DNA from: Hirudinaria manillensis
Lineage: Eukaryota > Annelida > Clitellata > Hirudinida > Hirudinidae
NCBI GenBank assembly: GCA_034509925.1
Contig: CM067533.1
Coordinates: forward strand, 3,176,535-3,240,534
Direction: 5' to 3'
DNA length: 64,000 nt
The position numbers were made by a program, and so were the translations under genes. The notes under the pieces are model-generated. The model saw nothing but the letters and a program-made list of their open reading frames with translations. It was not told the origin of the DNA and made no database searches. Within the stretch, counting starts at the first letter, position 1. The number at the start of each line of letters is the position of its first letter. This document shows, one piece after another, positions 41,274-64,000 of this stretch.

Positions 41274-41493
41274 GATAAGACGTCAGAAAAAACTGGCGGT
41301 ATTGTCGTCCTGCCTTTTCCTAGAATGCCAAAGAAAGAACGTTCGTGGAGCCTGCAGACGGATTGTCGATGCGTCTGGACTGAACGAAAAGGTCATCAGG
41401 CGAGTAGCTAGAATCGTCAGAAAAATGTCGACTCGAGGCGTCAACGGGGTCGACCGAAGGAAAGAAAAGAAATACAGGCGTTCTGAAGAATGA
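41274..41493 (+). pseudogene. Left-border fragment of the kinase gene (last 71 codons only)
   Basis: From GATAAGACGTCAG onward this matches the 3' end of every kinase copy (compare 43173-43392). The 5' 1085 bases of the gene, including the whole kinase domain, and its promoter are missing, and unrelated AT-rich sequence precedes it. The remaining frame is open to the stop and encodes the basic tail. Its spacer has a few private differences (for example TTTCACTTTTCATTT at 41571-41585 and CATTAAAAATTT at 41623), as expected for an edge unit that escapes homogenisation. Confidence 0.9.
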
Positions 41494-41709
41494 GCGGCAC
41501 ATCGAGTTTTTAAATTGACGGTTTTAAAAATTAAAAAAAAAACTTAACATCTAAAAAAACAAAATTGTCAATTTCACTTTTCATTTAAACCTATAGTTAA
41601 TTTAGGAATATTATAAATAAGTTCATTAAAAATTTACAATAGATTTAACAAAAAAAAAAAATCAAAATTACATGTTTATATTTTATTTTTTTAAATATTA
41701 GGAGTTGAA

Positions 41710-41885
41710 TATAAATTAAATCTTATTAAACATAAAAAATATAAATTAAATCTTAATAAATATTAAAATATAAATTATATCTTAATAAATATTAAAATAT
41801 AAATTAAATCTTATTAAATCTTAAAATATAAATTAAATCTTATTAAATATTAAAATATAAATTAAATCTTATTAAATATATAAAA
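41710..41885. repeat. AT-only minisatellite in the array spacer, 6 x about 29 bp
   Basis: Six modules beginning TATAAATTAAATCTTA (one has TTATAT) and ending TTAAAA, with no G and almost no C. Modules 2 and 3 contain AATAAA (41755-41760 and 41784-41789), which could serve as poly(A) signals for the preceding gene about 260 bases downstream of its stop. The same block occurs in every spacer, for example starting near 43610, 45507 and 47408. The copy before the twelfth gene has one extra A. Confidence 0.85.
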
Positions 41886-41899
41886 TACATCTCAACTTA

Positions 41900-41952
41900 G
41901 CGCGCGCGCGCGCCATTGTCTCATTACACATGCAGGCTCGTGCGCGCGCGAG
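41900..41952. promoter_or_regulatory. Paired alternating CG tracts upstream of the kinase TATA box
   Basis: GCGCGCGCGCGCGC at 41900-41913 and GCGCGCGCG at 41942-41950 flank 28 bases of mixed sequence. Alternating CG is the classic Z-DNA-prone sequence. It directly abuts the AT-only minisatellite, producing an extreme composition step about 60-70 bases before the TATA box. It is conserved without change in all units. Confidence 0.7.
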
Positions 41953-41969
41953 GGCTTGGCCCTGGGGCC

Positions 41970-41977
41970 TATATAAA
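41970..41977 (+). promoter_or_regulatory. TATA box of kinase copy 1 (repeated in every unit)
   Basis: TATATAAA preceded by GGGGCC lies 118 bases before the ATG. Transcription would start near 42000, giving a leader of about 85 bases. The ATG context (AATAGCATGG) has A at -3 and G at +4. Identical boxes precede the other copies at 43870, 45768, 47669, 49570, 51469, 53368, 55267, 57165, 59062, 60960 and 62860. Confidence 0.75.
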
Positions 41978-42087
41978 CGCGAAAGGGCGCAATCAAGATT
42001 ATTTTCACGAGTCAAGCGGTCGAGACGGGTGGAGGACTAAAAGAGGCAGCTAATCTCGGTAGAAACGCTCGATTAACCATTAATAGC

Positions 42088-43392
42088 ATGGAGTCACAAG
42101 TTATTCTCGGAAGATATTTCCTCACTAAAAAACTAGGAGAAGGAGGCTACGGGCAGGTCTACAGTGCCGTTGATTTGAGCGATGGCACCGACGTTGCCGT
42201 CAAATTATCTTACGGATATGGTCCGACAAGAGATTGCAACGTGCTCGAGGCTAACATTCTAGCGGCATTTTCGAATATCGACTCCCCATTCAAAAACCTC
42301 GTGGTGAACTTGAAATCGTCGCACGTGTTCGACAACTGCGTAATCCTCGTGCTCGAATTATTATCGAACAACCTGAGGAAATACATAAAAGACAGGGCTT
42401 TGGAATGCTTGGACAAGATATCAAATTACGCCAAGCAAATGATAGATTTCCTTCTCTTCATGTCTCAGAGGAATGTCATTCACGGCGACATAAAGCCTGA
42501 AAACATCCTAGTCGATGAGGCAAGTGAAAGCATCAAATTTGCCGATTTCGGACTGGCGCACTGGCCCTGGTCTACGCATAAAGCGCATGTCATACAAACT
42601 TTGCCTTATCGCGCACCCGAAGTCCTATTGGGATACAACTACGACGCGACGGTCGATAGTTGGAGCGTAGGCTGCGTGCTGGTCGAGTGCCTGCTAAGTA
42701 AACCGCTCTTCGGCGTAAGGGACGAATTACAACTCATGCAGAACATTGTCAAAATAATCGGGGCGCCCAGTCAACTTGTCATAAGCCAGGCACCCAAAAG
42801 AGACGAATACTTCTGGTTCGATCATGGATCTCGGCAATGGATCGTTAAAGGCCATCGATCGCCGGTGGTGCCGATGGGCTTGAGAAGATACATCAAGACT
42901 TACCACCTCATCGATTCAAAGAGTCCCGACTTTGAGCATTTTATGGATCTCGTCGAAAACATGATGAGAGTGGACTCGTACACACGCTATTCGCCTGAGG
43001 ATTGCCTCATGCTCCCGTTCATAAACCGACCGGTGCCTCGTTTTGAGCACGGCAAGGACTCTGAAAGCAGAGACTCGCCTACGACGGAGATGAGCCGTTT
43101 GTCGCAAATGGCTAACATCGACGAGTGCATTTCTGAAGCTGCCGCTAAGATCTACGGAAATGTCAGGCATTCGATAAGACGTCAGAAAAAACTGGCGGTA
43201 TTGTCGTCCTGCCTTTTCCTAGAATGCCAAAGAAAGAACGTTCGTGGAGCCTGCAGACGGATTGTCGATGCGTCTGGACTGAACGAAAAGGTCATCAGGC
43301 GAGTAGCTAGAATCGTCAGAAAAATGTCGACTCGAGGCGTCAACGGGGTCGACCGAAGGAAAGAAAAGAAATACAGGCGTTCTGAAGAATGA
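42088..43392 (+). CDS. Array kinase, copy 1: intronless divergent CMGC (DYRK/HIPK-like) protein kinase
   Basis: 434 residues, no intron. Glycine loop GEGGYG (17-22), VAVK with catalytic K39, helix-C glutamate probably E54, catalytic loop IHGDIKPEN (131-139) with H132-G-D134, K136 and N139, DFG (153-155), and YRAPEVLLG (174-182). Every residue needed for catalysis is present. The HGD loop in place of HRD, the VIQTLPYRAPE activation segment and GAPSQLVISQAPKRDEYFWF recall DYRK (HCD, YIQSRFYRAPE) and HIPK (HAD, and the SAGTK..RFF region). The activating tyrosine of DYRK/HIPK (Y of YIQ) is valine here (168), so activation must differ. The domain ends at about 312. A 120-residue tail follows, serine-rich then strongly basic (HSIRRQKK, RRKEKKYRR), possibly for nuclear localisation or nucleic-acid binding. 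Asp29 codon GAT; E240, V260. The specific function is unknown. Confidence 0.93.
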   Translation: MESQVILGRYFLTKKLGEGGYGQVYSAVDLSDGTDVAVKLSYGYGPTRDCNVLEANILAAFSNIDSPFKNLVVNLKSSHVFDNCVILVLELLSNNLRKYIKDRALECLDKISNYAKQMIDFLLFMSQRNVIHGDIKPENILVDEASESIKFADFGLAHWPWSTHKAHVIQTLPYRAPEVLLGYNYDATVDSWSVGCVLVECLLSKPLFGVRDELQLMQNIVKIIGAPSQLVISQAPKRDEYFWFDHGSRQWIVKGHRSPVVPMGLRRYIKTYHLIDSKSPDFEHFMDLVENMMRVDSYTRYSPEDCLMLPFINRPVPRFEHGKDSESRDSPTTEMSRLSQMANIDECISEAAAKIYGNVRHSIRRQKKLAVLSSCLFLECQRKNVRGACRRIVDASGLNEKVIRRVARIVRKMSTRGVNGVDRRKEKKYRRSEE

Positions 43393-43987: not shown

Positions 43988-45292
43988 ATGGAGTCACAAG
44001 TTATTCTCGGAAGATATTTCCTCACTAAAAAACTAGGAGAAGGAGGCTACGGGCAGGTCTACAGTGCCGTTGACTTGAGCGATGGCACCGACGTTGCCGT
44101 CAAATTATCTTACGGATATGGTCCGACAAGAGATTGCAACGTGCTCGAGGCTAACATTCTAGCGGCATTTTCGAATATCGACTCCCCATTCAAAAACCTC
44201 GTGGTGAACTTGAAATCGTCGCACGTGTTCGACAACTGCGTAATCCTCGTGCTCGAATTATTATCGAACAACCTGAGGAAATACATAAAAGACAGGGCTT
44301 TGGAATGCTTGGACAAGATATCAAATTACGCCAAGCAAATGATAGATTTCCTTCTCTTCATGTCTCAGAGGAATGTCATTCACGGCGACATAAAGCCTGA
44401 AAACATCCTAGTCGATGAGGCAAGTGAAAGCATCAAATTTGCCGATTTCGGACTGGCGCACTGGCCCTGGTCTACGCATAAAGCGCATGTCATACAAACT
44501 TTGCCTTATCGCGCACCCGAAGTCCTATTGGGATACAACTACGACGCGACGGTCGATAGTTGGAGCGTAGGCTGCGTGCTGGTCGAGTGCCTGCTAAGTA
44601 AACCGCTCTTCGGCGTAAGGGACGAATTACAACTCATGCAGAACATTGTCAAAATAATCGGGGCGCCCAGTCAACTTGTCATAAGCCAGGCACCCAAAAG
44701 AGACGAATACTTCTGGTTCGATCATGGATCTCGGCAATGGATCGTTAAAGGCCATCGATCGCCGGTGGTGCCGATGGGCTTGAGAAGATACATCAAGACT
44801 TACCACCTCATCGATTCAAAGAGTCCCGACTTTGAGCATTTTATGGATCTCGTCGAAAACATGATGAGAGTGGACTCGTACACACGCTATTCGCCTGAGG
44901 ATTGCCTCATGCTCCCGTTCATAAACCGACCGGTGCCTCGTTTTGAGCACGGCAAGGACTCTGAAAGCAGAGACTCGCCTACGACGGAGATGAGCCGTTT
45001 GTCGCAAATGGCTAACATCGACGAGTGCATTTCTGAAGCTGCCGCTAAGATCTACGGAAATGTCAGGCATTCGATAAGACGTCAGAAAAAACTGGCGGTA
45101 TTGTCGTCCTGCCTTTTCCTAGAATGCCAAAGAAAGAACGTTCGTGGAGCCTGCAGACGGATTGTCGATGCGTCTGGACTGAACGAAAAGGTCATCAGGC
45201 GAGTAGCTAGAATCGTCAGAAAAATGTCGACTCGAGGCGTCAACGGGGTCGACCGAAGGAAAGAAAAGAAATACAGGCGTTCTGAAGAATGA
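43988..45292 (+). CDS. Array kinase, copy 2
   Basis: Protein identical to copy 1. Differs by the synonymous GAC codon for Asp29, a state shared by copies 2-7. TATA box at 43870. The A-run after the stop is two bases shorter than in copy 1. Confidence 0.93.
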   Translation: MESQVILGRYFLTKKLGEGGYGQVYSAVDLSDGTDVAVKLSYGYGPTRDCNVLEANILAAFSNIDSPFKNLVVNLKSSHVFDNCVILVLELLSNNLRKYIKDRALECLDKISNYAKQMIDFLLFMSQRNVIHGDIKPENILVDEASESIKFADFGLAHWPWSTHKAHVIQTLPYRAPEVLLGYNYDATVDSWSVGCVLVECLLSKPLFGVRDELQLMQNIVKIIGAPSQLVISQAPKRDEYFWFDHGSRQWIVKGHRSPVVPMGLRRYIKTYHLIDSKSPDFEHFMDLVENMMRVDSYTRYSPEDCLMLPFINRPVPRFEHGKDSESRDSPTTEMSRLSQMANIDECISEAAAKIYGNVRHSIRRQKKLAVLSSCLFLECQRKNVRGACRRIVDASGLNEKVIRRVARIVRKMSTRGVNGVDRRKEKKYRRSEE

Positions 45293-45885: not shown

Positions 45886-47190
45886 ATGGAGTCACAAGTT
45901 ATTCTCGGAAGATATTTCCTCACTAAAAAACTAGGAGAAGGAGGCTACGGGCAGGTCTACAGTGCCGTTGACTTGAGCGATGGCACCGACGTTGCCGTCA
46001 AATTATCTTACGGATATGGTCCGACAAGAGATTGCAACGTGCTCGAGGCTAACATTCTAGCGGCATTTTCGAATATCGACTCCCCATTCAAAAACCTCGT
46101 GGTGAACTTGAAATCGTCGCACGTGTTCGACAACTGCGTAATCCTCGTGCTCGAATTATTATCGAACAACCTGAGGAAATACATAAAAGACAGGGCTTTG
46201 GAATGCTTGGACAAGATATCAAATTACGCCAAGCAAATGATAGATTTCCTTCTCTTCATGTCTCAGAGGAATGTCATTCACGGCGACATAAAGCCTGAAA
46301 ACATCCTAGTCGATGAGGCAAGTGAAAGCATCAAATTTGCCGATTTCGGACTGGCGCACTGGCCCTGGTCTACGCATAAAGCGCATGTCATACAAACTTT
46401 GCCTTATCGCGCACCCGAAGTCCTATTGGGATACAACTACGACGCGACGGTCGATAGTTGGAGCGTAGGCTGCGTGCTGGTCGAGTGCCTGCTAAGTAAA
46501 CCGCTCTTCGGCGTAAGGGACGAATTACAACTCATGCAGAACATTGTCAAAATAATCGGGGCGCCCAGTCAACTTGTCATAAGCCAGGCACCCAAAAGAG
46601 ACGAATACTTCTGGTTCGATCATGGATCTCGGCAATGGATCGTTAAAGGCCATCGATCGCCGGTGGTGCCGATGGGCTTGAGAAGATACATCAAGACTTA
46701 CCACCTCATCGATTCAAAGAGTCCCGACTTTGAGCATTTTATGGATCTCGTCGAAAACATGATGAGAGTGGACTCGTACACACGCTATTCGCCTGAGGAT
46801 TGCCTCATGCTCCCGTTCATAAACCGACCGGTGCCTCGTTTTGAGCACGGCAAGGACTCTGAAAGCAGAGACTCGCCTACGACGGAGATGAGCCGTTTGT
46901 CGCAAATGGCTAACATCGACGAGTGCATTTCTGAAGCTGCCGCTAAGATCTACGGAAATGTCAGGCATTCGATAAGACGTCAGAAAAAACTGGCGGTATT
47001 GTCGTCCTGCCTTTTCCTAGAATGCCAAAGAAAGAACGTTCGTGGAGCCTGCAGACGGATTGTCGATGCGTCTGGACTGAACGAAAAGGTCATCAGGCGA
47101 GTAGCTAGAATCGTCAGAAAAATGTCGACTCGAGGCGTCAACGGGGTCGACCGAAGGAAAGAAAAGAAATACAGGCGTTCTGAAGAATGA
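45886..47190 (+). CDS. Array kinase, copy 3
   Basis: Protein identical to copy 1; Asp29 is GAC. TATA box at 45768. Distance from the previous start is 1898 bases. Confidence 0.93.
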   Translation: MESQVILGRYFLTKKLGEGGYGQVYSAVDLSDGTDVAVKLSYGYGPTRDCNVLEANILAAFSNIDSPFKNLVVNLKSSHVFDNCVILVLELLSNNLRKYIKDRALECLDKISNYAKQMIDFLLFMSQRNVIHGDIKPENILVDEASESIKFADFGLAHWPWSTHKAHVIQTLPYRAPEVLLGYNYDATVDSWSVGCVLVECLLSKPLFGVRDELQLMQNIVKIIGAPSQLVISQAPKRDEYFWFDHGSRQWIVKGHRSPVVPMGLRRYIKTYHLIDSKSPDFEHFMDLVENMMRVDSYTRYSPEDCLMLPFINRPVPRFEHGKDSESRDSPTTEMSRLSQMANIDECISEAAAKIYGNVRHSIRRQKKLAVLSSCLFLECQRKNVRGACRRIVDASGLNEKVIRRVARIVRKMSTRGVNGVDRRKEKKYRRSEE

Positions 47191-47786: not shown

Positions 47787-49091
47787 ATGGAGTCACAAGT
47801 TATTCTCGGAAGATATTTCCTCACTAAAAAACTAGGAGAAGGAGGCTACGGGCAGGTCTACAGTGCCGTTGACTTGAGCGATGGCACCGACGTTGCCGTC
47901 AAATTATCTTACGGATATGGTCCGACAAGAGATTGCAACGTGCTCGAGGCTAACATTCTAGCGGCATTTTCGAATATCGACTCCCCATTCAAAAACCTCG
48001 TGGTGAACTTGAAATCGTCGCACGTGTTCGACAACTGCGTAATCCTCGTGCTCGAATTATTATCGAACAACCTGAGGAAATACATAAAAGACAGGGCTTT
48101 GGAATGCTTGGACAAGATATCAAATTACGCCAAGCAAATGATAGATTTCCTTCTCTTCATGTCTCAGAGGAATGTCATTCACGGCGACATAAAGCCTGAA
48201 AACATCCTAGTCGATGAGGCAAGTGAAAGCATCAAATTTGCCGATTTCGGACTGGCGCACTGGCCCTGGTCTACGCATAAAGCGCATGTCATACAAACTT
48301 TGCCTTATCGCGCACCCGAAGTCCTATTGGGATACAACTACGACGCGACGGTCGATAGTTGGAGCGTAGGCTGCGTGCTGGTCGAGTGCCTGCTAAGTAA
48401 ACCGCTCTTCGGCGTAAGGGACGAATTACAACTCATGCAGAACATTGTCAAAATAATCGGGGCGCCCAGTCAACTTGTCATAAGCCAGGCACCCAAAAGA
48501 GACGAATACTTCTGGTTCGATCATGGATCTCGGCAATGGATCGTTAAAGGCCATCGATCGCCGGTGGTGCCGATGGGCTTGAGAAGATACATCAAGACTT
48601 ACCACCTCATCGATTCAAAGAGTCCCGACTTTGAGCATTTTATGGATCTCGTCGAAAACATGATGAGAGTGGACTCGTACACACGCTATTCGCCTGAGGA
48701 TTGCCTCATGCTCCCGTTCATAAACCGACCGGTGCCTCGTTTTGAGCACGGCAAGGACTCTGAAAGCAGAGACTCGCCTACGACGGAGATGAGCCGTTTG
48801 TCGCAAATGGCTAACATCGACGAGTGCATTTCTGAAGCTGCCGCTAAGATCTACGGAAATGTCAGGCATTCGATAAGACGTCAGAAAAAACTGGCGGTAT
48901 TGTCGTCCTGCCTTTTCCTAGAATGCCAAAGAAAGAACGTTCGTGGAGCCTGCAGACGGATTGTCGATGCGTCTGGACTGAACGAAAAGGTCATCAGGCG
49001 AGTAGCTAGAATCGTCAGAAAAATGTCGACTCGAGGCGTCAACGGGGTCGACCGAAGGAAAGAAAAGAAATACAGGCGTTCTGAAGAATGA
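47787..49091 (+). CDS. Array kinase, copy 4
   Basis: Protein identical to copy 1; Asp29 is GAC. TATA box at 47669. Distance from the previous start is 1901 bases, because of longer A-runs in the spacer. Confidence 0.93.
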   Translation: MESQVILGRYFLTKKLGEGGYGQVYSAVDLSDGTDVAVKLSYGYGPTRDCNVLEANILAAFSNIDSPFKNLVVNLKSSHVFDNCVILVLELLSNNLRKYIKDRALECLDKISNYAKQMIDFLLFMSQRNVIHGDIKPENILVDEASESIKFADFGLAHWPWSTHKAHVIQTLPYRAPEVLLGYNYDATVDSWSVGCVLVECLLSKPLFGVRDELQLMQNIVKIIGAPSQLVISQAPKRDEYFWFDHGSRQWIVKGHRSPVVPMGLRRYIKTYHLIDSKSPDFEHFMDLVENMMRVDSYTRYSPEDCLMLPFINRPVPRFEHGKDSESRDSPTTEMSRLSQMANIDECISEAAAKIYGNVRHSIRRQKKLAVLSSCLFLECQRKNVRGACRRIVDASGLNEKVIRRVARIVRKMSTRGVNGVDRRKEKKYRRSEE

Positions 49092-49687: not shown

Positions 49688-50992
49688 ATGGAGTCACAAG
49701 TTATTCTCGGAAGATATTTCCTCACTAAAAAACTAGGAGAAGGAGGCTACGGGCAGGTCTACAGTGCCGTTGACTTGAGCGATGGCACCGACGTTGCCGT
49801 CAAATTATCTTACGGATATGGTCCGACAAGAGATTGCAACGTGCTCGAGGCTAACATTCTAGCGGCATTTTCGAATATCGACTCCCCATTCAAAAACCTC
49901 GTGGTGAACTTGAAATCGTCGCACGTGTTCGACAACTGCGTAATCCTCGTGCTCGAATTATTATCGAACAACCTGAGGAAATACATAAAAGACAGGGCTT
50001 TGGAATGCTTGGACAAGATATCAAATTACGCCAAGCAAATGATAGATTTCCTTCTCTTCATGTCTCAGAGGAATGTCATTCACGGCGACATAAAGCCTGA
50101 AAACATCCTAGTCGATGAGGCAAGTGAAAGCATCAAATTTGCCGATTTCGGACTGGCGCACTGGCCCTGGTCTACGCATAAAGCGCATGTCATACAAACT
50201 TTGCCTTATCGCGCACCCGAAGTCCTATTGGGATACAACTACGACGCGACGGTCGATAGTTGGAGCGTAGGCTGCGTGCTGGTCGAGTGCCTGCTAAGTA
50301 AACCGCTCTTCGGCGTAAGGGACGAATTACAACTCATGCAGAACATTGTCAAAATAATCGGGGCGCCCAGTCAACTTGTCATAAGCCAGGCACCCAAAAG
50401 AGACGAATACTTCTGGTTCGATCATGGATCTCGGCAATGGATCGTTAAAGGCCATCGATCGCCGGTGGTGCCGATGGGCTTGAGAAGATACATCAAGACT
50501 TACCACCTCATCGATTCAAAGAGTCCCGACTTTGAGCATTTTATGGATCTCGTCGAAAACATGATGAGAGTGGACTCGTACACACGCTATTCGCCTGAGG
50601 ATTGCCTCATGCTCCCGTTCATAAACCGACCGGTGCCTCGTTTTGAGCACGGCAAGGACTCTGAAAGCAGAGACTCGCCTACGACGGAGATGAGCCGTTT
50701 GTCGCAAATGGCTAACATCGACGAGTGCATTTCTGAAGCTGCCGCTAAGATCTACGGAAATGTCAGGCATTCGATAAGACGTCAGAAAAAACTGGCGGTA
50801 TTGTCGTCCTGCCTTTTCCTAGAATGCCAAAGAAAGAACGTTCGTGGAGCCTGCAGACGGATTGTCGATGCGTCTGGACTGAACGAAAAGGTCATCAGGC
50901 GAGTAGCTAGAATCGTCAGAAAAATGTCGACTCGAGGCGTCAACGGGGTCGACCGAAGGAAAGAAAAGAAATACAGGCGTTCTGAAGAATGA
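49688..50992 (+). CDS. Array kinase, copy 5
   Basis: Protein identical to copy 1; Asp29 is GAC. TATA box at 49570. Distance from the previous start is 1901 bases. Confidence 0.93.
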   Translation: MESQVILGRYFLTKKLGEGGYGQVYSAVDLSDGTDVAVKLSYGYGPTRDCNVLEANILAAFSNIDSPFKNLVVNLKSSHVFDNCVILVLELLSNNLRKYIKDRALECLDKISNYAKQMIDFLLFMSQRNVIHGDIKPENILVDEASESIKFADFGLAHWPWSTHKAHVIQTLPYRAPEVLLGYNYDATVDSWSVGCVLVECLLSKPLFGVRDELQLMQNIVKIIGAPSQLVISQAPKRDEYFWFDHGSRQWIVKGHRSPVVPMGLRRYIKTYHLIDSKSPDFEHFMDLVENMMRVDSYTRYSPEDCLMLPFINRPVPRFEHGKDSESRDSPTTEMSRLSQMANIDECISEAAAKIYGNVRHSIRRQKKLAVLSSCLFLECQRKNVRGACRRIVDASGLNEKVIRRVARIVRKMSTRGVNGVDRRKEKKYRRSEE

Positions 50993-51586: not shown

Positions 51587-52891
51587 ATGGAGTCACAAGT
51601 TATTCTCGGAAGATATTTCCTCACTAAAAAACTAGGAGAAGGAGGCTACGGGCAGGTCTACAGTGCCGTTGACTTGAGCGATGGCACCGACGTTGCCGTC
51701 AAATTATCTTACGGATATGGTCCGACAAGAGATTGCAACGTGCTCGAGGCTAACATTCTAGCGGCATTTTCGAATATCGACTCCCCATTCAAAAACCTCG
51801 TGGTGAACTTGAAATCGTCGCACGTGTTCGACAACTGCGTAATCCTCGTGCTCGAATTATTATCGAACAACCTGAGGAAATACATAAAAGACAGGGCTTT
51901 GGAATGCTTGGACAAGATATCAAATTACGCCAAGCAAATGATAGATTTCCTTCTCTTCATGTCTCAGAGGAATGTCATTCACGGCGACATAAAGCCTGAA
52001 AACATCCTAGTCGATGAGGCAAGTGAAAGCATCAAATTTGCCGATTTCGGACTGGCGCACTGGCCCTGGTCTACGCATAAAGCGCATGTCATACAAACTT
52101 TGCCTTATCGCGCACCCGAAGTCCTATTGGGATACAACTACGACGCGACGGTCGATAGTTGGAGCGTAGGCTGCGTGCTGGTCGAGTGCCTGCTAAGTAA
52201 ACCGCTCTTCGGCGTAAGGGACGAATTACAACTCATGCAGAACATTGTCAAAATAATCGGGGCGCCCAGTCAACTTGTCATAAGCCAGGCACCCAAAAGA
52301 GACGAATACTTCTGGTTCGATCATGGATCTCGGCAATGGATCGTTAAAGGCCATCGATCGCCGGTGGTGCCGATGGGCTTGAGAAGATACATCAAGACTT
52401 ACCACCTCATCGATTCAAAGAGTCCCGACTTTGAGCATTTTATGGATCTCGTCGAAAACATGATGAGAGTGGACTCGTACACACGCTATTCGCCTGAGGA
52501 TTGCCTCATGCTCCCGTTCATAAACCGACCGGTGCCTCGTTTTGAGCACGGCAAGGACTCTGAAAGCAGAGACTCGCCTACGACGGAGATGAGCCGTTTG
52601 TCGCAAATGGCTAACATCGACGAGTGCATTTCTGAAGCTGCCGCTAAGATCTACGGAAATGTCAGGCATTCGATAAGACGTCAGAAAAAACTGGCGGTAT
52701 TGTCGTCCTGCCTTTTCCTAGAATGCCAAAGAAAGAACGTTCGTGGAGCCTGCAGACGGATTGTCGATGCGTCTGGACTGAACGAAAAGGTCATCAGGCG
52801 AGTAGCTAGAATCGTCAGAAAAATGTCGACTCGAGGCGTCAACGGGGTCGACCGAAGGAAAGAAAAGAAATACAGGCGTTCTGAAGAATGA
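51587..52891 (+). CDS. Array kinase, copy 6
   Basis: Protein identical to copy 1; Asp29 is GAC. TATA box at 51469. Distance from the previous start is 1899 bases. Confidence 0.93.
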   Translation: MESQVILGRYFLTKKLGEGGYGQVYSAVDLSDGTDVAVKLSYGYGPTRDCNVLEANILAAFSNIDSPFKNLVVNLKSSHVFDNCVILVLELLSNNLRKYIKDRALECLDKISNYAKQMIDFLLFMSQRNVIHGDIKPENILVDEASESIKFADFGLAHWPWSTHKAHVIQTLPYRAPEVLLGYNYDATVDSWSVGCVLVECLLSKPLFGVRDELQLMQNIVKIIGAPSQLVISQAPKRDEYFWFDHGSRQWIVKGHRSPVVPMGLRRYIKTYHLIDSKSPDFEHFMDLVENMMRVDSYTRYSPEDCLMLPFINRPVPRFEHGKDSESRDSPTTEMSRLSQMANIDECISEAAAKIYGNVRHSIRRQKKLAVLSSCLFLECQRKNVRGACRRIVDASGLNEKVIRRVARIVRKMSTRGVNGVDRRKEKKYRRSEE

Positions 52892-53485: not shown

Positions 53486-54790
53486 ATGGAGTCACAAGTT
53501 ATTCTCGGAAGATATTTCCTCACTAAAAAACTAGGAGAAGGAGGCTACGGGCAGGTCTACAGTGCCGTTGACTTGAGCGATGGCACCGACGTTGCCGTCA
53601 AATTATCTTACGGATATGGTCCGACAAGAGATTGCAACGTGCTCGAGGCTAACATTCTAGCGGCATTTTCGAATATCGACTCCCCATTCAAAAACCTCGT
53701 GGTGAACTTGAAATCGTCGCACGTGTTCGACAACTGCGTAATCCTCGTGCTCGAATTATTATCGAACAACCTGAGGAAATACATAAAAGACAGGGCTTTG
53801 GAATGCTTGGACAAGATATCAAATTACGCCAAGCAAATGATAGATTTCCTTCTCTTCATGTCTCAGAGGAATGTCATTCACGGCGACATAAAGCCTGAAA
53901 ACATCCTAGTCGATGAGGCAAGTGAAAGCATCAAATTTGCCGATTTCGGACTGGCGCACTGGCCCTGGTCTACGCATAAAGCGCATGTCATACAAACTTT
54001 GCCTTATCGCGCACCCGAAGTCCTATTGGGATACAACTACGACGCGACGGTCGATAGTTGGAGCGTAGGCTGCGTGCTGGTCGAGTGCCTGCTAAGTAAA
54101 CCGCTCTTCGGCGTAAGGGACGAATTACAACTCATGCAGAACATTGTCAAAATAATCGGGGCGCCCAGTCAACTTGTCATAAGCCAGGCACCCAAAAGAG
54201 ACGAATACTTCTGGTTCGATCATGGATCTCGGCAATGGATCGTTAAAGGCCATCGATCGCCGGTGGTGCCGATGGGCTTGAGAAGATACATCAAGACTTA
54301 CCACCTCATCGATTCAAAGAGTCCCGACTTTGAGCATTTTATGGATCTCGTCGAAAACATGATGAGAGTGGACTCGTACACACGCTATTCGCCTGAGGAT
54401 TGCCTCATGCTCCCGTTCATAAACCGACCGGTGCCTCGTTTTGAGCACGGCAAGGACTCTGAAAGCAGAGACTCGCCTACGACGGAGATGAGCCGTTTGT
54501 CGCAAATGGCTAACATCGACGAGTGCATTTCTGAAGCTGCCGCTAAGATCTACGGAAATGTCAGGCATTCGATAAGACGTCAGAAAAAACTGGCGGTATT
54601 GTCGTCCTGCCTTTTCCTAGAATGCCAAAGAAAGAACGTTCGTGGAGCCTGCAGACGGATTGTCGATGCGTCTGGACTGAACGAAAAGGTCATCAGGCGA
54701 GTAGCTAGAATCGTCAGAAAAATGTCGACTCGAGGCGTCAACGGGGTCGACCGAAGGAAAGAAAAGAAATACAGGCGTTCTGAAGAATGA
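53486..54790 (+). CDS. Array kinase, copy 7
   Basis: Protein identical to copy 1; the last copy with GAC at Asp29. TATA box at 53368. Confidence 0.93.
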   Translation: MESQVILGRYFLTKKLGEGGYGQVYSAVDLSDGTDVAVKLSYGYGPTRDCNVLEANILAAFSNIDSPFKNLVVNLKSSHVFDNCVILVLELLSNNLRKYIKDRALECLDKISNYAKQMIDFLLFMSQRNVIHGDIKPENILVDEASESIKFADFGLAHWPWSTHKAHVIQTLPYRAPEVLLGYNYDATVDSWSVGCVLVECLLSKPLFGVRDELQLMQNIVKIIGAPSQLVISQAPKRDEYFWFDHGSRQWIVKGHRSPVVPMGLRRYIKTYHLIDSKSPDFEHFMDLVENMMRVDSYTRYSPEDCLMLPFINRPVPRFEHGKDSESRDSPTTEMSRLSQMANIDECISEAAAKIYGNVRHSIRRQKKLAVLSSCLFLECQRKNVRGACRRIVDASGLNEKVIRRVARIVRKMSTRGVNGVDRRKEKKYRRSEE

Positions 54791-55384: not shown

Positions 55385-56689
55385 ATGGAGTCACAAGTTA
55401 TTCTCGGAAGATATTTCCTCACTAAAAAACTAGGAGAAGGAGGCTACGGGCAGGTCTACAGTGCCGTTGATTTGAGCGATGGCACCGACGTTGCCGTCAA
55501 ATTATCTTACGGATATGGTCCGACAAGAGATTGCAACGTGCTCGAGGCTAACATTCTAGCGGCATTTTCGAATATCGACTCCCCATTCAAAAACCTCGTG
55601 GTGAACTTGAAATCGTCGCACGTGTTCGACAACTGCGTAATCCTCGTGCTCGAATTATTATCGAACAACCTGAGGAAATACATAAAAGACAGGGCTTTGG
55701 AATGCTTGGACAAGATATCAAATTACGCCAAGCAAATGATAGATTTCCTTCTCTTCATGTCTCAGAGGAATGTCATTCACGGCGACATAAAGCCTGAAAA
55801 CATCCTAGTCGATGAGGCAAGTGAAAGCATCAAATTTGCCGATTTCGGACTGGCGCACTGGCCCTGGTCTACGCATAAAGCGCATGTCATACAAACTTTG
55901 CCTTATCGCGCACCCGAAGTCCTATTGGGATACAACTACGACGCGACGGTCGATAGTTGGAGCGTAGGCTGCGTGCTGGTCGAGTGCCTGCTAAGTAAAC
56001 CGCTCTTCGGCGTAAGGGACGAATTACAACTCATGCAGAACATTGTCAAAATAATCGGGGCGCCCAGTCAACTTGTCATAAGCCAGGCACCCAAAAGAGA
56101 CGAATACTTCTGGTTCGATCATGGATCTCGGCAATGGATCGTTAAAGGCCATCGATCGCCGGTGGTGCCGATGGGCTTGAGAAGATACATCAAGACTTAC
56201 CACCTCATCGATTCAAAGAGTCCCGACTTTGAGCATTTTATGGATCTCGTCGAAAACATGATGAGAGTGGACTCGTACACACGCTATTCGCCTGAGGATT
56301 GCCTCATGCTCCCGTTCATAAACCGACCGGTGCCTCGTTTTGAGCACGGCAAGGACTCTGAAAGCAGAGACTCGCCTACGACGGAGATGAGCCGTTTGTC
56401 GCAAATGGCTAACATCGACGAGTGCATTTCTGAAGCTGCCGCTAAGATCTACGGAAATGTCAGGCATTCGATAAGACGTCAGAAAAAACTGGCGGTATTG
56501 TCGTCCTGCCTTTTCCTAGAATGCCAAAGAAAGAACGTTCGTGGAGCCTGCAGACGGATTGTCGATGCGTCTGGACTGAACGAAAAGGTCATCAGGCGAG
56601 TAGCTAGAATCGTCAGAAAAATGTCGACTCGAGGCGTCAACGGGGTCGACCGAAGGAAAGAAAAGAAATACAGGCGTTCTGAAGAATGA
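55385..56689 (+). CDS. Array kinase, copy 8
   Basis: Protein identical to copy 1; Asp29 returns to GAT, as in copy 1 and copies 9-12. TATA box at 55267. Confidence 0.93.
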   Translation: MESQVILGRYFLTKKLGEGGYGQVYSAVDLSDGTDVAVKLSYGYGPTRDCNVLEANILAAFSNIDSPFKNLVVNLKSSHVFDNCVILVLELLSNNLRKYIKDRALECLDKISNYAKQMIDFLLFMSQRNVIHGDIKPENILVDEASESIKFADFGLAHWPWSTHKAHVIQTLPYRAPEVLLGYNYDATVDSWSVGCVLVECLLSKPLFGVRDELQLMQNIVKIIGAPSQLVISQAPKRDEYFWFDHGSRQWIVKGHRSPVVPMGLRRYIKTYHLIDSKSPDFEHFMDLVENMMRVDSYTRYSPEDCLMLPFINRPVPRFEHGKDSESRDSPTTEMSRLSQMANIDECISEAAAKIYGNVRHSIRRQKKLAVLSSCLFLECQRKNVRGACRRIVDASGLNEKVIRRVARIVRKMSTRGVNGVDRRKEKKYRRSEE

Positions 56690-57282: not shown

Positions 57283-58587
57283 ATGGAGTCACAAGTTATT
57301 CTCGGAAGATATTTCCTCACTAAAAAACTAGGAGAAGGAGGCTACGGGCAGGTCTACAGTGCCGTTGATTTGAGCGATGGCACCGACGTTGCCGTCAAAT
57401 TATCTTACGGATATGGTCCGACAAGAGATTGCAACGTGCTCGAGGCTAACATTCTAGCGGCATTTTCGAATATCGACTCCCCATTCAAAAACCTCGTGGT
57501 GAACTTGAAATCGTCGCACGTGTTCGACAACTGCGTAATCCTCGTGCTCGAATTATTATCGAACAACCTGAGGAAATACATAAAAGACAGGGCTTTGGAA
57601 TGCTTGGACAAGATATCAAATTACGCCAAGCAAATGATAGATTTCCTTCTCTTCATGTCTCAGAGGAATGTCATTCACGGCGACATAAAGCCTGAAAACA
57701 TCCTAGTCGATGAGGCAAGTGAAAGCATCAAATTTGCCGATTTCGGACTGGCGCACTGGCCCTGGTCTACGCATAAAGCGCATGTCATACAAACTTTGCC
57801 TTATCGCGCACCCGAAGTCCTATTGGGATACAACTACGACGCGACGGTCGATAGTTGGAGCGTAGGCTGCGTGCTGGTCGAGTGCCTGCTAAGTAAACCG
57901 CTCTTCGGCGTAAGGGACGAATTACAACTCATGCAGAACATTGTCAAAATAATCGGGGCGCCCAGTCAACTTGTCATAAGCCAGGCACCCAAAAGAGACG
58001 AATACTTCTGGTTCGATCATGGATCTCGGCAATGGATCGTTAAAGGCCATCGATCGCCGGTGGTGCCGATGGGCTTGAGAAGATACATCAAGACTTACCA
58101 CCTCATCGATTCAAAGAGTCCCGACTTTGAGCATTTTATGGATCTCGTCGAAAACATGATGAGAGTGGACTCGTACACACGCTATTCGCCTGAGGATTGC
58201 CTCATGCTCCCGTTCATAAACCGACCGGTGCCTCGTTTTGAGCACGGCAAGGACTCTGAAAGCAGAGACTCGCCTACGACGGAGATGAGCCGTTTGTCGC
58301 AAATGGCTAACATCGACGAGTGCATTTCTGAAGCTGCCGCTAAGATCTACGGAAATGTCAGGCATTCGATAAGACGTCAGAAAAAACTGGCGGTATTGTC
58401 GTCCTGCCTTTTCCTAGAATGCCAAAGAAAGAACGTTCGTGGAGCCTGCAGACGGATTGTCGATGCGTCTGGACTGAACGAAAAGGTCATCAGGCGAGTA
58501 GCTAGAATCGTCAGAAAAATGTCGACTCGAGGCGTCAACGGGGTCGACCGAAGGAAAGAAAAGAAATACAGGCGTTCTGAAGAATGA
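57283..58587 (+). CDS. Array kinase, copy 9
   Basis: Protein identical to copy 1; Asp29 GAT. TATA box at 57165. Its downstream spacer has an uninterrupted A-run after TTTAAC (58738-58753) where most units read AACAAC, a variant shared with the left-border fragment's spacer. Confidence 0.93.
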   Translation: MESQVILGRYFLTKKLGEGGYGQVYSAVDLSDGTDVAVKLSYGYGPTRDCNVLEANILAAFSNIDSPFKNLVVNLKSSHVFDNCVILVLELLSNNLRKYIKDRALECLDKISNYAKQMIDFLLFMSQRNVIHGDIKPENILVDEASESIKFADFGLAHWPWSTHKAHVIQTLPYRAPEVLLGYNYDATVDSWSVGCVLVECLLSKPLFGVRDELQLMQNIVKIIGAPSQLVISQAPKRDEYFWFDHGSRQWIVKGHRSPVVPMGLRRYIKTYHLIDSKSPDFEHFMDLVENMMRVDSYTRYSPEDCLMLPFINRPVPRFEHGKDSESRDSPTTEMSRLSQMANIDECISEAAAKIYGNVRHSIRRQKKLAVLSSCLFLECQRKNVRGACRRIVDASGLNEKVIRRVARIVRKMSTRGVNGVDRRKEKKYRRSEE

Positions 58588-59179: not shown

Positions 59180-60484
59180 ATGGAGTCACAAGTTATTCTC
59201 GGAAGATATTTCCTCACTAAAAAACTAGGAGAAGGAGGCTACGGGCAGGTCTACAGTGCCGTTGATTTGAGCGATGGCACCGACGTTGCCGTCAAATTAT
59301 CTTACGGATATGGTCCGACAAGAGATTGCAACGTGCTCGAGGCTAACATTCTAGCGGCATTTTCGAATATCGACTCCCCATTCAAAAACCTCGTGGTGAA
59401 CTTGAAATCGTCGCACGTGTTCGACAACTGCGTAATCCTCGTGCTCGAATTATTATCGAACAACCTGAGGAAATACATAAAAGACAGGGCTTTGGAATGC
59501 TTGGACAAGATATCAAATTACGCCAAGCAAATGATAGATTTCCTTCTCTTCATGTCTCAGAGGAATGTCATTCACGGCGACATAAAGCCTGAAAACATCC
59601 TAGTCGATGAGGCAAGTGAAAGCATCAAATTTGCCGATTTCGGACTGGCGCACTGGCCCTGGTCTACGCATAAAGCGCATGTCATACAAACTTTGCCTTA
59701 TCGCGCACCCGAAGTCCTATTGGGATACAACTACGACGCGACGGTCGATAGTTGGAGCGTAGGCTGCGTGCTGGTCGAGTGCCTGCTAAGTAAACCGCTC
59801 TTCGGCGTAAGGGACGAATTACAACTCATGCAGAACATTGTCAAAATAATCGGGGCGCCCAGTCAACTTGTCATAAGCCAGGCACCCAAAAGAGACGATT
59901 ACTTCTGGTTCGATCATGGATCTCGGCAATGGATCGTTAAAGGCCATCGATCGCCGGTGGTGCCGATGGGCTTGAGAAGATACATCAAGACTTACCACCT
60001 CATCGATTCAAAGAGTCCCGACTTTGAGCATTTTATGGATCTCGTCGAAAACATGATGAGAGTGGACTCGTACACACGCTATTCGCCTGAGGATTGCCTC
60101 ATGCTCCCGTTCATAAACCGACCGGTGCCTCGTTTTGAGCACGGCAAGGACTCTGAAAGCAGAGACTCGCCTACGACGGAGATGAGCCGTTTGTCGCAAA
60201 TGGCTAACATCGACGAGTGCATTTCTGAAGCTGCCGCTAAGATCTACGGAAATGTCAGGCATTCGATAAGACGTCAGAAAAAACTGGCGGTATTGTCGTC
60301 CTGCCTTTTCCTAGAATGCCAAAGAAAGAACGTTCGTGGAGCCTGCAGACGGATTGTCGATGCGTCTGGACTGAACGAAAAGGTCATCAGGCGAGTAGCT
60401 AGAATCGTCAGAAAAATGTCGACTCGAGGCGTCAACGGGGTCGACCGAAGGAAAGAAAAGAAATACAGGCGTTCTGAAGAATGA
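59180..60484 (+). CDS. Array kinase, copy 10 (E240D)
   Basis: Differs from copies 1-9 by GAT instead of GAA at codon 240 (Glu to Asp). V260 is retained. TATA box at 59062. The change lies in the kinase C-lobe insert and is conservative. Confidence 0.93.
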   Translation: MESQVILGRYFLTKKLGEGGYGQVYSAVDLSDGTDVAVKLSYGYGPTRDCNVLEANILAAFSNIDSPFKNLVVNLKSSHVFDNCVILVLELLSNNLRKYIKDRALECLDKISNYAKQMIDFLLFMSQRNVIHGDIKPENILVDEASESIKFADFGLAHWPWSTHKAHVIQTLPYRAPEVLLGYNYDATVDSWSVGCVLVECLLSKPLFGVRDELQLMQNIVKIIGAPSQLVISQAPKRDDYFWFDHGSRQWIVKGHRSPVVPMGLRRYIKTYHLIDSKSPDFEHFMDLVENMMRVDSYTRYSPEDCLMLPFINRPVPRFEHGKDSESRDSPTTEMSRLSQMANIDECISEAAAKIYGNVRHSIRRQKKLAVLSSCLFLECQRKNVRGACRRIVDASGLNEKVIRRVARIVRKMSTRGVNGVDRRKEKKYRRSEE

Positions 60485-61077
60485 GCGGCACATCGAGTTT
60501 TTAAATTGACGGTTTTAAAAATTAAAAAAAAACTTAACATCTAAAAAAACAAAATTGTCAACTTCACTTTTTATTTAAACCTATAGTTAATTTAGGAATA
60601 TTATAAATAAGTTCATTACAAATTTACAATAGATTTAACAACAAAAAAAAATCAAAATTACATGTTTATATTTTATTTTTTTAAATATTAGGAGTTGAAT
60701 ATAAATTAAATCTTATTAAACATAAAAAATATAAATTAAATCTTAATAAATATTAAAATATAAATTATATCTTAATAAATATTAAAATATAAATTAAATC
60801 TTATTAAATCTTAAAATATAAATTAAATCTTATTAAATATTAAAATATAAATTAAATCTTATTAAATATATAAAATACATCTCAACTTAGCGCGCGCGCG
60901 CGCCATTGTCTCATTACACATGCAGGCTCGTGCGCGCGCGAGGGCTTGGCCCTGGGGCCTATATAAACGCGAAAGGGCGCAATCAAGATTATTTTCACGA
61001 GTCAAGCGGTCGAGACGGGTGGAGGACTAAAAGAGGCAGCTAATCTCGGTAGAAACGCTCGATTAACCATTAATAGC

Positions 61078-62382
61078 ATGGAGTCACAAGTTATTCTCGG
61101 AAGATATTTCCTCACTAAAAAACTAGGAGAAGGAGGCTACGGGCAGGTCTACAGTGCCGTTGATTTGAGCGATGGCACCGACGTTGCCGTCAAATTATCT
61201 TACGGATATGGTCCGACAAGAGATTGCAACGTGCTCGAGGCTAACATTCTAGCGGCATTTTCGAATATCGACTCCCCATTCAAAAACCTCGTGGTGAACT
61301 TGAAATCGTCGCACGTGTTCGACAACTGCGTAATCCTCGTGCTCGAATTATTATCGAACAACCTGAGGAAATACATAAAAGACAGGGCTTTGGAATGCTT
61401 GGACAAGATATCAAATTACGCCAAGCAAATGATAGATTTCCTTCTCTTCATGTCTCAGAGGAATGTCATTCACGGCGACATAAAGCCTGAAAACATCCTA
61501 GTCGATGAGGCAAGTGAAAGCATCAAATTTGCCGATTTCGGACTGGCGCACTGGCCCTGGTCTACGCATAAAGCGCATGTCATACAAACTTTGCCTTATC
61601 GCGCACCCGAAGTCCTATTGGGATACAACTACGACGCGACGGTCGATAGTTGGAGCGTAGGCTGCGTGCTGGTCGAGTGCCTGCTAAGTAAACCGCTCTT
61701 CGGCGTAAGGGACGAATTACAACTCATGCAGAACATTGTCAAAATAATCGGGGCGCCCAGTCAACTTGTCATAAGCCAGGCACCCAAAAGAGACGATTAC
61801 TTCTGGTTCGATCATGGATCTCGGCAATGGATCGTTAAAGGCCATCGATCGCCGATGGTGCCGATGGGCTTGAGAAGATACATCAAGACTTACCACCTCA
61901 TCGATTCAAAGAGTCCCGACTTTGAGCATTTTATGGATCTCGTCGAAAACATGATGAGAGTGGACTCGTACACACGCTATTCGCCTGAGGATTGCCTCAT
62001 GCTCCCGTTCATAAACCGACCGGTGCCTCGTTTTGAGCACGGCAAGGACTCTGAAAGCAGAGACTCGCCTACGACGGAGATGAGCCGTTTGTCGCAAATG
62101 GCTAACATCGACGAGTGCATTTCTGAAGCTGCCGCTAAGATCTACGGAAATGTCAGGCATTCGATAAGACGTCAGAAAAAACTGGCGGTATTGTCGTCCT
62201 GCCTTTTCCTAGAATGCCAAAGAAAGAACGTTCGTGGAGCCTGCAGACGGATTGTCGATGCGTCTGGACTGAACGAAAAGGTCATCAGGCGAGTAGCTAG
62301 AATCGTCAGAAAAATGTCGACTCGAGGCGTCAACGGGGTCGACCGAAGGAAAGAAAAGAAATACAGGCGTTCTGAAGAATGA
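61078..62382 (+). CDS. Array kinase, copy 11 (E240D, V260M)
   Basis: Carries both the codon-240 Asp and an ATG for GTG change at codon 260 (Val to Met, in SPMVPMG). TATA box at 60960. It is the only copy with both changes. Confidence 0.93.
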   Translation: MESQVILGRYFLTKKLGEGGYGQVYSAVDLSDGTDVAVKLSYGYGPTRDCNVLEANILAAFSNIDSPFKNLVVNLKSSHVFDNCVILVLELLSNNLRKYIKDRALECLDKISNYAKQMIDFLLFMSQRNVIHGDIKPENILVDEASESIKFADFGLAHWPWSTHKAHVIQTLPYRAPEVLLGYNYDATVDSWSVGCVLVECLLSKPLFGVRDELQLMQNIVKIIGAPSQLVISQAPKRDDYFWFDHGSRQWIVKGHRSPMVPMGLRRYIKTYHLIDSKSPDFEHFMDLVENMMRVDSYTRYSPEDCLMLPFINRPVPRFEHGKDSESRDSPTTEMSRLSQMANIDECISEAAAKIYGNVRHSIRRQKKLAVLSSCLFLECQRKNVRGACRRIVDASGLNEKVIRRVARIVRKMSTRGVNGVDRRKEKKYRRSEE

Positions 62383-62977
62383 GCGGCACATCGAGTTTTT
62401 AAATTGACGGTTTTAAAAATTAAAAAAAAAACTTAACATCTAAAAAAACAAAATTGTCAACTTCACTTTTTATTTAAACCTATAGTTAATTTAGGAATAT
62501 TATAAATAAGTTCATTACAAATTTACAATAGATTTAACAACAAAAAAAAATCAAAATTACATGTTTATATTTTATTTTTTTAAATATTAGGAGTTGAATA
62601 TAAATTAAATCTTATTAAACATAAAAAATATAAATTAAATCTTAATAAATATTAAAATATAAATTATATCTTAATAAATATTAAAATATAAATTAAATCT
62701 TATTAAATCTTAAAATATAAATTAAATCTTATTAAAATATTAAAATATAAATTAAATCTTATTAAATATATAAAATACATCTCAACTTAGCGCGCGCGCG
62801 CGCCATTGTCTCATTACACATGCAGGCTCGTGCGCGCGCGAGGGCTTGGCCCTGGGGCCTATATAAACGCGAAAGGGCGCAATCAAGATTATTTTCACGA
62901 GTCAAGCGGTCGAGACGGGTGGAGGACTAAAAGAGGCAGCTAATCTCGGTAGAAACGCTCGATTAACCATTAATAGC

Positions 62978-64000
62978 ATGGAGTCACAAGTTATTCTCGG
63001 AAGATATTTCCTCACTAAAAAACTAGGAGAAGGAGGCTACGGGCAGGTCTACAGTGCCGTTGATTTGAGCGATGGCACCGACGTTGCCGTCAAATTATCT
63101 TACGGATATGGTCCGACAAGAGATTGCAACGTGCTCGAGGCTAACATTCTAGCGGCATTTTCGAATATCGACTCCCCATTCAAAAACCTCGTGGTGAACT
63201 TGAAATCGTCGCACGTGTTCGACAACTGCGTAATCCTCGTGCTCGAATTATTATCGAACAACCTGAGGAAATACATAAAAGACAGGGCTTTGGAATGCTT
63301 GGACAAGATATCAAATTACGCCAAGCAAATGATAGATTTCCTTCTCTTCATGTCTCAGAGGAATGTCATTCACGGCGACATAAAGCCTGAAAACATCCTA
63401 GTCGATGAGGCAAGTGAAAGCATCAAATTTGCCGATTTCGGACTGGCGCACTGGCCCTGGTCTACGCATAAAGCGCATGTCATACAAACTTTGCCTTATC
63501 GCGCACCCGAAGTCCTATTGGGATACAACTACGACGCGACGGTCGATAGTTGGAGCGTAGGCTGCGTGCTGGTCGAGTGCCTGCTAAGTAAACCGCTCTT
63601 CGGCGTAAGGGACGAATTACAACTCATGCAGAACATTGTCAAAATAATCGGGGCGCCCAGTCAACTTGTCATAAGCCAGGCACCCAAAAGAGACGAATAC
63701 TTCTGGTTCGATCATGGATCTCGGCAATGGATCGTTAAAGGCCATCGATCGCCGATGGTGCCGATGGGCTTGAGAAGATACATCAAGACTTACCACCTCA
63801 TCGATTCAAAGAGTCCCGACTTTGAGCATTTTATGGATCTCGTCGAAAACATGATGAGAGTGGACTCGTACACACGCTATTCGCCTGAGGATTGCCTCAT
63901 GCTCCCGTTCATAAACCGACCGGTGCCTCGTTTTGAGCACGGCAAGGACTCTGAAAGCAGAGACTCGCCTACGACGGAGATGAGCCGTTTGTCGCAAATG
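62978..64000 (+). CDS. Array kinase, copy 12, cut by window end (V260M)
   Basis: 341 codons are visible, open to the last base, and include the entire kinase domain. E240 as in copies 1-9, but M260 as in copy 11. TATA box at 62860. The upstream minisatellite has one extra A (about 62735). The missing 93 codons presumably continue beyond the window. Confidence 0.92.
   Translation, partial: MESQVILGRYFLTKKLGEGGYGQVYSAVDLSDGTDVAVKLSYGYGPTRDCNVLEANILAAFSNIDSPFKNLVVNLKSSHVFDNCVILVLELLSNNLRKYIKDRALECLDKISNYAKQMIDFLLFMSQRNVIHGDIKPENILVDEASESIKFADFGLAHWPWSTHKAHVIQTLPYRAPEVLLGYNYDATVDSWSVGCVLVECLLSKPLFGVRDELQLMQNIVKIIGAPSQLVISQAPKRDEYFWFDHGSRQWIVKGHRSPMVPMGLRRYIKTYHLIDSKSPDFEHFMDLVENMMRVDSYTRYSPEDCLMLPFINRPVPRFEHGKDSESRDSPTTEMSRLSQM

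Follow-up and report, generated by a model that had tools for sequence, protein, structure and literature searches.

The Kinase Array

We analyzed a stretch of 64,000 bases from the leech Hirudinaria manillensis, referred to below as the window (C8:3176535-3240534, GenBank contig CM067533.1, in an assembly of 148,429,096 bases on 23 contigs). Its right-hand part, positions 41274-64000, contains eleven complete head-to-tail genes of 434 codons, each encoding a protein kinase fused to a repeat of the general transcription factor TFIIB, and a twelfth gene that is cut by the window end (Table 1). In the window the unit period is 1897-1901 bp, and the coding sequences of the copies are 0-2 bases off that of copy 1. 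The original prediction, made from the window alone, had proposed at least 12 near-identical, promoter-bearing and intronless kinase genes with a period of 1.9 kb, eleven of them consecutive, full length and open. The analysis bore this out and revealed that the prediction had been an understatement. In the whole assembly the array comprises 26 complete copies, copy 12 being followed by 14 further ones up to the array end at C8:3267389. Each of the 26 genes has a promoter of its own with TATA and GACGGG elements, and the genes are intronless insofar as each consists of one open frame.

The array is highly homogeneous. The 26 copies represent seven distinct coding sequences and four distinct proteins, with 4 variable columns out of 1305. 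In the spacers, 2 of 659 alignment columns contain a substitution; this count covers 25 of the 26 units, the spacer of the last unit being cut, and refers to substitutions, spacer length differences standing outside it. The left edge of the array is sharp, identity with unit 1 breaking at position 41274 near codon 362 of a truncated copy. At the right end the last spacer, read by eye, loses the repeat ahead of a TATA box.

The assembly was built from HiFi reads with a mean length of 18.73 kb, as given in the part of the genome report covered here (PMC10671345). The copy number of 26 may be inexact because the array, at 49 kb, exceeds this length. This uncertainty and the near absence of divergence between the copies would suit an assembly artefact or a recent neutral amplification without function. 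However, all 26 frames are open, the variants sit in ordered blocks along the array and both array ends run into other sequence. We therefore consider such an origin very unlikely.

Table 1: Features of the kinase array in the window.
Feature	Position in window	Strand	Basis
Truncated leftmost kinase copy, about codon 362 to stop; left array boundary	41274-41493	+	Identity break
29-bp A+T-rich minisatellite in spacer, first of 12 in the window	41708-41887	+	Tandem Repeats Finder
Copy 1 core promoter: CTATATA at 41969, initiator-like GATTATTT at +28, GACGGG at +55 (42024-42029), GCGC-rich upstream	41969-42029	+	
Copy 1, kinase-TFIIB fusion gene, 434 amino acids	42088-43392	+	
Copy 1 protein kinase domain, residues 12-312	42121-43023	+	PF00069, E 2.1e-41
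Copy 1 TFIIB repeat, residues 329-405, corresponding to TFIIB repeat 1	43072-43302	+	PF00382, E 4.4e-6; tail profile
Copy 2	43988-45292	+	Open reading frame
Copy 3	45886-47190	+	Open reading frame
Copy 4	47787-49091	+	Open reading frame
Copy 5	49688-50992	+	Open reading frame
Copy 6	51587-52891	+	Open reading frame
Copy 7	53486-54790	+	Open reading frame
Copy 8	55385-56689	+	Open reading frame
Copy 9	57283-58587	+	Open reading frame
Copy 10 (E240D)	59180-60484	+	Open reading frame
Copy 11 (E240D, V260M)	61078-62382	+	Open reading frame
Copy 12 (V260M in visible part), cut by window end	62978-64000	+	Complete at C8:3239512-3240816

The Kinase-TFIIB Fusion Protein

The N-terminal part of the array protein is a protein kinase domain, and the tail that follows it matched the TFIIB repeat family with 27.1 bits at a gathering score of 23.6. 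The nearest solved kinase, both by sequence and by fold, is DYRK1A. The catalytic residues K39, E54, H132/D134/K136/N139, D153-F154-G155 and P177-E178 are invariant in an alignment of 10 sequences. Thus, the earlier assignment as a catalytically complete DYRK/HIPK-like kinase was correct. In the DYRK family a Tyr-x-Tyr motif in the activation loop serves autophosphorylation. The DYRK1A segment YQYIQS aligns with AHVIQT of the array kinase, in which both tyrosines are replaced. Because the Tyr-x-Tyr motif is absent, the enzyme is classified here as DYRK-like and not as a DYRK.

The tail was analyzed by means of a profile built from four kinase tails without any TFIIB sequence. This profile found TFIIB chains in the PDB (best E 3.9e-19) and matched residues 116-207 of full-length human TFIIB (E 1.5e-18). 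In a comparison with two TFIIB proteins of the H. manillensis genome the tail scored 82 and 101 against repeat 1. Repeat 2 was rejected as the source of the tail, with far lower scores of 42 and 38 that were also reached by shuffled tails. An AlphaFold model of the tail, computed from an alignment that included two TFIIB rows, showed five helices, the number typical of the cyclin-like TFIIB repeat, with a mean predicted local distance difference test score (pLDDT) of 79.7; its top Foldseek match was TFIIB (E 8.6e-4, template modelling score 0.70). Consequently, the array protein joins a DYRK-like kinase to repeat 1 of TFIIB. It contains one TFIIB repeat and no zinc ribbon and is thus distinct from the general factor TFIIB, which possesses a ribbon and two repeats.

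The array had previously been compared to Stellate of Drosophila, a tandem array derived from the regulatory (beta) subunit of casein kinase 2. Both are tandem arrays of a kinase-related gene; the leech array, in contrast, encodes a complete catalytic domain with a TFIIB repeat and is accompanied by arrays of initiation factors. The casein kinase 2 beta subunit was absent from the six Pfam families that matched the array protein at E values up to 1. We found no description of a kinase-TFIIB fusion, of initiation-factor arrays or of their shared promoter in the open-access literature, most subscription papers lying outside this scope; in this sense the fusion is new.

Related Kinase Genes

The fusion is also encoded at three dispersed loci (C2:7626764, C2:9530428 and C11:8139156), so that the TFIIB tail is kept at four loci. 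Other paralogues of the kinase do not carry the tail, including those of a 7-copy array at C11:8124105-8136182. The ratio of nonsynonymous to synonymous divergence (dN/dS) was 0.14-0.43 in ten kinase gene pairs that we selected, including one pair from the C11 array, with dS near saturation in most of the comparisons. Among the fusion genes, dN was 0.25 and dS 0.84 in the pair that was most informative. The ratio between the kinase loci is thus well below 1.

Two further loci contain members of the kinase family. At C11:8055620-8060992 an intronless cluster consists of TFIIB (- strand), a tail-less kinase of the same family (+ strand) and PRMT5 (637 amino acids, + strand). At C2:12882931-12891658 two inverted, near-identical, intronless genes of 835 codons flank a kinase of the family. 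Both carry an exact copy of the motif TTCAGAATCTTTT, which is described below, 53 bases before the ATG. One of the two was searched and gave no match in Pfam or the PDB.

Further Arrays of Initiation Factors

General transcription factors are normally regarded as products of single- or few-copy genes. Searches of the assembly for TFIIB, TBP and TFIIA-gamma revealed three more arrays, so that the four arrays, that of the kinase included, are distributed over three contigs. A search for TFIIB repeats identified 19 intronless TFIIB genes at C10:5074983-5103339, of which 15 run in one direction and 4 in the opposite one. Sixteen of them are intact at 315 amino acids, and the encoded TFIIB matches residues 9-300 of human TFIIB (E 7.8e-68).

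The search for TBP revealed 14 copies of a gene for a two-repeat protein at C2:12753116-12766256. The two units that were read encode 180 amino acids each and are one residue apart. The protein contains two PF00352 stretches. The positions of the four phenylalanines by which TBP intercalates into the TATA box were taken from the covered part of PMC3142196. Compared to human TBP, Phe193, Phe210 and Phe284 are replaced by N, W and H, respectively, and Phe301 is kept. The W and the H are also present in a C3 gene with several exons. Three of the four pieces of this gene are closer to the array protein than to two intronless TBP genes on C8; the fourth is slightly closer to one of the C8 genes (81 vs 87). 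On the basis of the three replaced phenylalanines and of the W and H shared with the C3 gene, the array protein is called TRF2/TBPL1-like. TRF2/TBPL1 proteins bind to TFIIA and TFIIB and not to TATA.

With TFIIB and a TBP-type protein in arrays, TFIIA was expected to be arrayed as well. The ensuing search for TFIIA-gamma yielded the largest array, with 82 complete copies and one partial copy at C2:7857804-7922548. Four units were read, giving three identical proteins of 102 amino acids and one with a single difference. The arrayed protein matches human TFIIA-gamma (E 2.9e-28). The best match outside the array, C6:6752246, was taken as the ordinary TFIIA-gamma gene; two other single matches were found. 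In the covered part of a comparison of other leech assemblies, "transcription factor IIA complex" is enriched among the families expanded in H. nipponia and H. manillensis (PMC10087013), which also argues against an assembly artefact. The sections of that paper covered here do not comment on arrays, and the main text of other leech genome papers yielded no relevant passage on TFIIA or transcription initiation.

The original prediction had presented a complete kinase in a histone-like array, which stands, and had regarded this kinase array as an isolated one. The latter is ruled out by the Pfam match to TFIIB and by the genome-wide searches. The fusion and at least four arrays of core-promoter factors shift the probable function from that of a kinase to that of an alternative transcription-initiation machinery.

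The negative control PCNA was a single interrupted gene, and the BRF1-like genes, as we read them, are not arrayed. Copies of TFIIF-beta with long frames lie at C8:709251, C8:552007, C8:601920, C8:1133677, C8:5497413 and C1:10324782; a TTCAGAATCTTTT site precedes the last of them by about 0.65 kb. At C10:5456475-5497728 weak histone-fold matches recur evenly in nine units of 5 kb, a lower bound, which probably represent the core histone array. Each of the four arrays exceeds this number of units. A broken TFIIB copy (C10:5451135) is located close to the presumed histone array.

A Core Promoter Shared by the Arrays

In the kinase, TRF2-like and TFIIA-gamma arrays the genes are preceded by CTATATA and by GACGGG at exactly +55 (CTATATA-N48-GACGGG). 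An initiator-like GATTATTT, TCATCATT or TCATTATT is present at +26 to +30, and the DNA upstream is GCGC-rich. The pattern CTATATA-N47-49-GACGGG gave 124 matches in the whole assembly (41 and 83 by strand) and 4 with a reversed control. These comprise 83 matches in the TFIIA-gamma, 14 in the TRF2-like and 26 in the kinase array, altogether 123; the only one outside the three arrays lies at C4:3017277. The copies in one array are not independent, and the result therefore amounts to three independent promoters sharing one geometry. Neutral amplification would not yield three arrays with one promoter. The dispersed intronless genes do not have the exact array promoter. Since three arrays share one core-promoter geometry and the fourth, that of TFIIB, carries a variant of it, the four are probably switched on together.

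A search for CTATATA with TCATTATT gave 126 matches (control 18). Among the 100 listed were the TFIIA-gamma array again and eight sites at C2:13032369-13041472 (- strand). With a spacing of mostly 940-941 bp, the latter form a further tandem array. A gene of the NC2 type with a histone fold was considered for it, and no match was found there.

The amplified gene might also be an ordinary kinase that is needed in bulk for the provisioning of eggs or embryos in the manner of histones, the TFIIB tail being vestigial. The uniform, open and promoter-bearing units agree with such a pure dosage array, as do the presumed nine-unit histone array of the same genome, inferred from weak matches, and the existence of tail-less paralogues including the C11 array. 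However, the tail is retained at four loci, and both its profile and its modelled fold match TFIIB. Furthermore, TRF2-like protein, TFIIA-gamma and TFIIB are the products of the other arrays, two of which have the promoter of the kinase genes. This explanation is rather unlikely.

A Second Promoter Motif

Intronless genes outside the arrays share a different motif. Among 16 such genes examined, 13 carry TTCAGAATCTTTT with at least 11 of 13 positions within 350 bases upstream. Ten of these reach at least 12, among them a TBP copy in which the motif lies at an unusual distance, 338 bases. The three remaining genes score lower, namely PRMT5 (10), C2:12886609 (9) and C11:7840167 (8, upstream largely masked). 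Out of 2000 random stretches, 37 reached 11 and none reached 12. The proportion of 13 out of 16 is not an independent count because the motif was derived from some of these genes. An independent count is provided by the genome-wide search, which gave 506 sites and 15 for a reversed control.

Among 100 listed sites, 42 form 22 same-strand pairs at 4.9-5.5 kb, a spacing like that of long terminal repeats (LTRs), and 2 opposite-strand pairs were found at the same distance. Three more pairs among these sites belong to two 4-copy gene arrays. One is a 4-fold tandem at C1:9374967-9382608 with steps of 2547 bp, in which the unit read was an intronless CPSF2-like gene. The other, at C2:6348987-6353959, is a 4-fold tandem with steps of 1.6-1.7 kb, and the unit read was a ubiquitin-conjugating-enzyme gene. 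An LTR-type element with a reverse transcriptase-RNase H-integrase frame lies near one end of the TFIIB array (C10:5106225-5108774, - strand), and a TTCAGAATCTTTT site is found just beyond its pol frame at C10:5106225.

Eight unpaired or tandem sites were read. Five are followed by a frame of at least 190 codons starting 96-144 bases downstream, and three are not. The frames encode a CCCH protein (read as CPSF4-like), CPSF2 (match in the PDB, E 3.6e-82), an E2 enzyme and an exportin-4-like protein (weak match, E 2e-4). The fifth has no Pfam match and may belong to an element because a stretch of 131 bases in its start region is 89% similar to another of the sampled sites. Otherwise, in nine sites compared, similarity around the motif is limited to about 18-70 bases. 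TTCAGAATCTTTT therefore looks like a core promoter rather than a captured LTR.

Intronless genes with a shared promoter motif, an expanded kinase family and TFIIB- and TBP-like genes are also what a large DNA virus or a virus-like element with its own initiation factors would bring along. No relative was detected in viral contigs, in a search that reaches close relatives only. Against a viral or horizontal origin, paralogues occur on several different contigs, and interrupted genes for TFIIB and TRF2 exist alongside them. The TFIIB and TFIIA-gamma encoded by the arrays also agree well with their human counterparts, and the CPSF2 copy that bears the motif has its match in CPSF2 of the PDB. Such an origin can hardly be credited.

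A Probable Amplified Initiation Machinery

Overall, we think it probable that the kinase array belongs, as one module, to an alternative initiation machinery for RNA polymerase II that is amplified for dosage and whose arrays are co-activated and deliver a TRF2-TFIIA-TFIIB complex together with a tethered kinase. Mass production in eggs, sperm or embryos, as originally suggested for the kinase, remains the best class of explanation. The arrays, the fusion, the intact kinase frames, the common promoter and the low dN/dS between kinase loci are seen in the sequence; expression and co-expression, complex assembly, biochemistry, substrate and tissue are inferred. The four arrays would be activated together in the fashion of histone arrays, giving a burst of protein at one life stage. 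The likely product would be a TRF2-TFIIA-TFIIB promoter complex. In TFIIB, repeat 1 contacts TBP, DNA and RNA polymerase II. The repeat in the fusion is likely to bring the kinase to this complex or to the polymerase, where it would phosphorylate the C-terminal domain of RNA polymerase II or neighbouring factors. DYRK1A and HIPKs phosphorylate this domain, according to the covered part of PMC8595372. The array kinase resembles DYRK1A as its closest solved relative, and the substrates of DYRK1A are linked to transcription; it differs in the replaced activation-loop tyrosines and in its C-terminal TFIIB repeat.

Histone, rRNA and 5S genes form uniform tandem units, each with a promoter, whose many intact copies undergo concerted evolution and ensure mass supply. 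The kinase array is likewise arranged head to tail and homogenised, each gene having its own promoter, as seen in the 26 promoters, the 26 open kinase genes and the 4 variable columns. In contrast to those arrays, the leech arrays code for a kinase and for general transcription factors, with one gene per unit and a distribution over three contigs.

Germ cells offer two precedents. In mouse spermatids TRF2/TBPL1 forms a germ-cell initiation machinery with TFIIA/ALF, as described in the covered parts of PMC5006001 and PMC3142196. Common to both systems is a TBP paralogue with altered TATA-contacting phenylalanines, which in the leech would likewise work with TFIIA and TFIIB. The leech genes differ in being intronless, in their tandem arrangement and in the additional kinase-TFIIB fusion. 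In mouse oocytes TBPL2/TFIIA replaces the initiation complex and acts at specific core promoters, among them those of LTR retrotransposons (PMC7755920, in part). A stage-specific complex reading particular promoters, LTR elements included, would be the likeness to the leech system. In contrast, TBPL2 prefers TATA-like promoters, and the covered part of that paper describes neither gene arrays nor a kinase fusion. By analogy to these precedents, and because a promoter motif is shared with an LTR element, germline or early embryo would be the most likely stage.

Several observations weigh against an amplified initiation machinery. Fast homogenisation alone can yield uniform arrays. The TFIIB array has TATA and TCATTATT, but its downstream element is a variant and not the exact GACGGG. 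Three of its 19 copies have broken frames, and in the one pair of TFIIB subtypes compared dN (0.036) was about equal to dS (0.035); for these reasons the array shows no tight constraint. TFIIF-beta is found only dispersed, its 8 matches at 7 loci comprising six long frames and an interrupted gene, and TFIIE-alpha likewise, at three loci with long frames. The saturation of dS affects the kinase comparisons, and the good model of the tail drew on TFIIB rows. In the full-length model the pLDDT of the tail was below 50 (alignment of 10 rows, 3 with tail).

The ratio found for the TFIIB subtypes, the extreme homogeneity of the kinase array and the promoter motif common to dispersed gene copies and an LTR element would also suit a selfish or conflict-driven amplification. 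This could be a Stellate-like system, meiotic drive or an arms race with retrotransposons reading the same promoters. However, the amplified genes form a coherent set of cooperating factors, drive alone leaves the TRF2-like, TFIIA-gamma and TFIIB arrays unexplained, and the low dN/dS between kinase genes also speaks against it. To our knowledge no drive system with such a set of factors exists. We judge this origin unlikely.

More tentatively, the amplified machinery might extend to a second, largely autonomous RNA polymerase II initiation system, a possibility to which we give limited credence. The TATA-driven arrays would supply large amounts of TRF2-like protein, TFIIA-gamma, TFIIB and the kinase-TFIIB fusion. 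The resulting complex would read the TTCAGAATCTTTT promoter and thereby drive dispersed intronless duplicates of gene-expression genes together with Ty3/gypsy-type elements, amounting to an alternative programme of transcription and mRNA processing. The dispersed TTCAGAATCTTTT set would then include TFIIB, at least one TFIIF-beta, CPSF2, the CPSF4-like and XPO4-like genes, and kinases with and without the TFIIB tail.

If an initiation machinery is indeed amplified here, some animals may adjust the supply of part of their initiation complex in the way that others do for histones. Whether TFIID-based initiation is replaced at one life stage becomes a testable question. The system also offers a natural kinase putatively tethered to the initiation machinery and two candidate core promoters. 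In addition, it provides an uncommon case in which to study the concerted evolution of arrays, as their products may be needed in fixed proportions.

Other Features

No structured RNA was detected in the window by Rfam at gathering scores. A long frame with SKI/SNO and SMAD4-binding domains lies 1.7 kb left of the kinase array (window 38524-39612). Antistasin domains are abundant in the assembly, with 63 matches counted in this one genome. At window positions 10705-11538 a single open frame encodes a phosphatidylinositol transfer protein (PF02121, E 3e-112).

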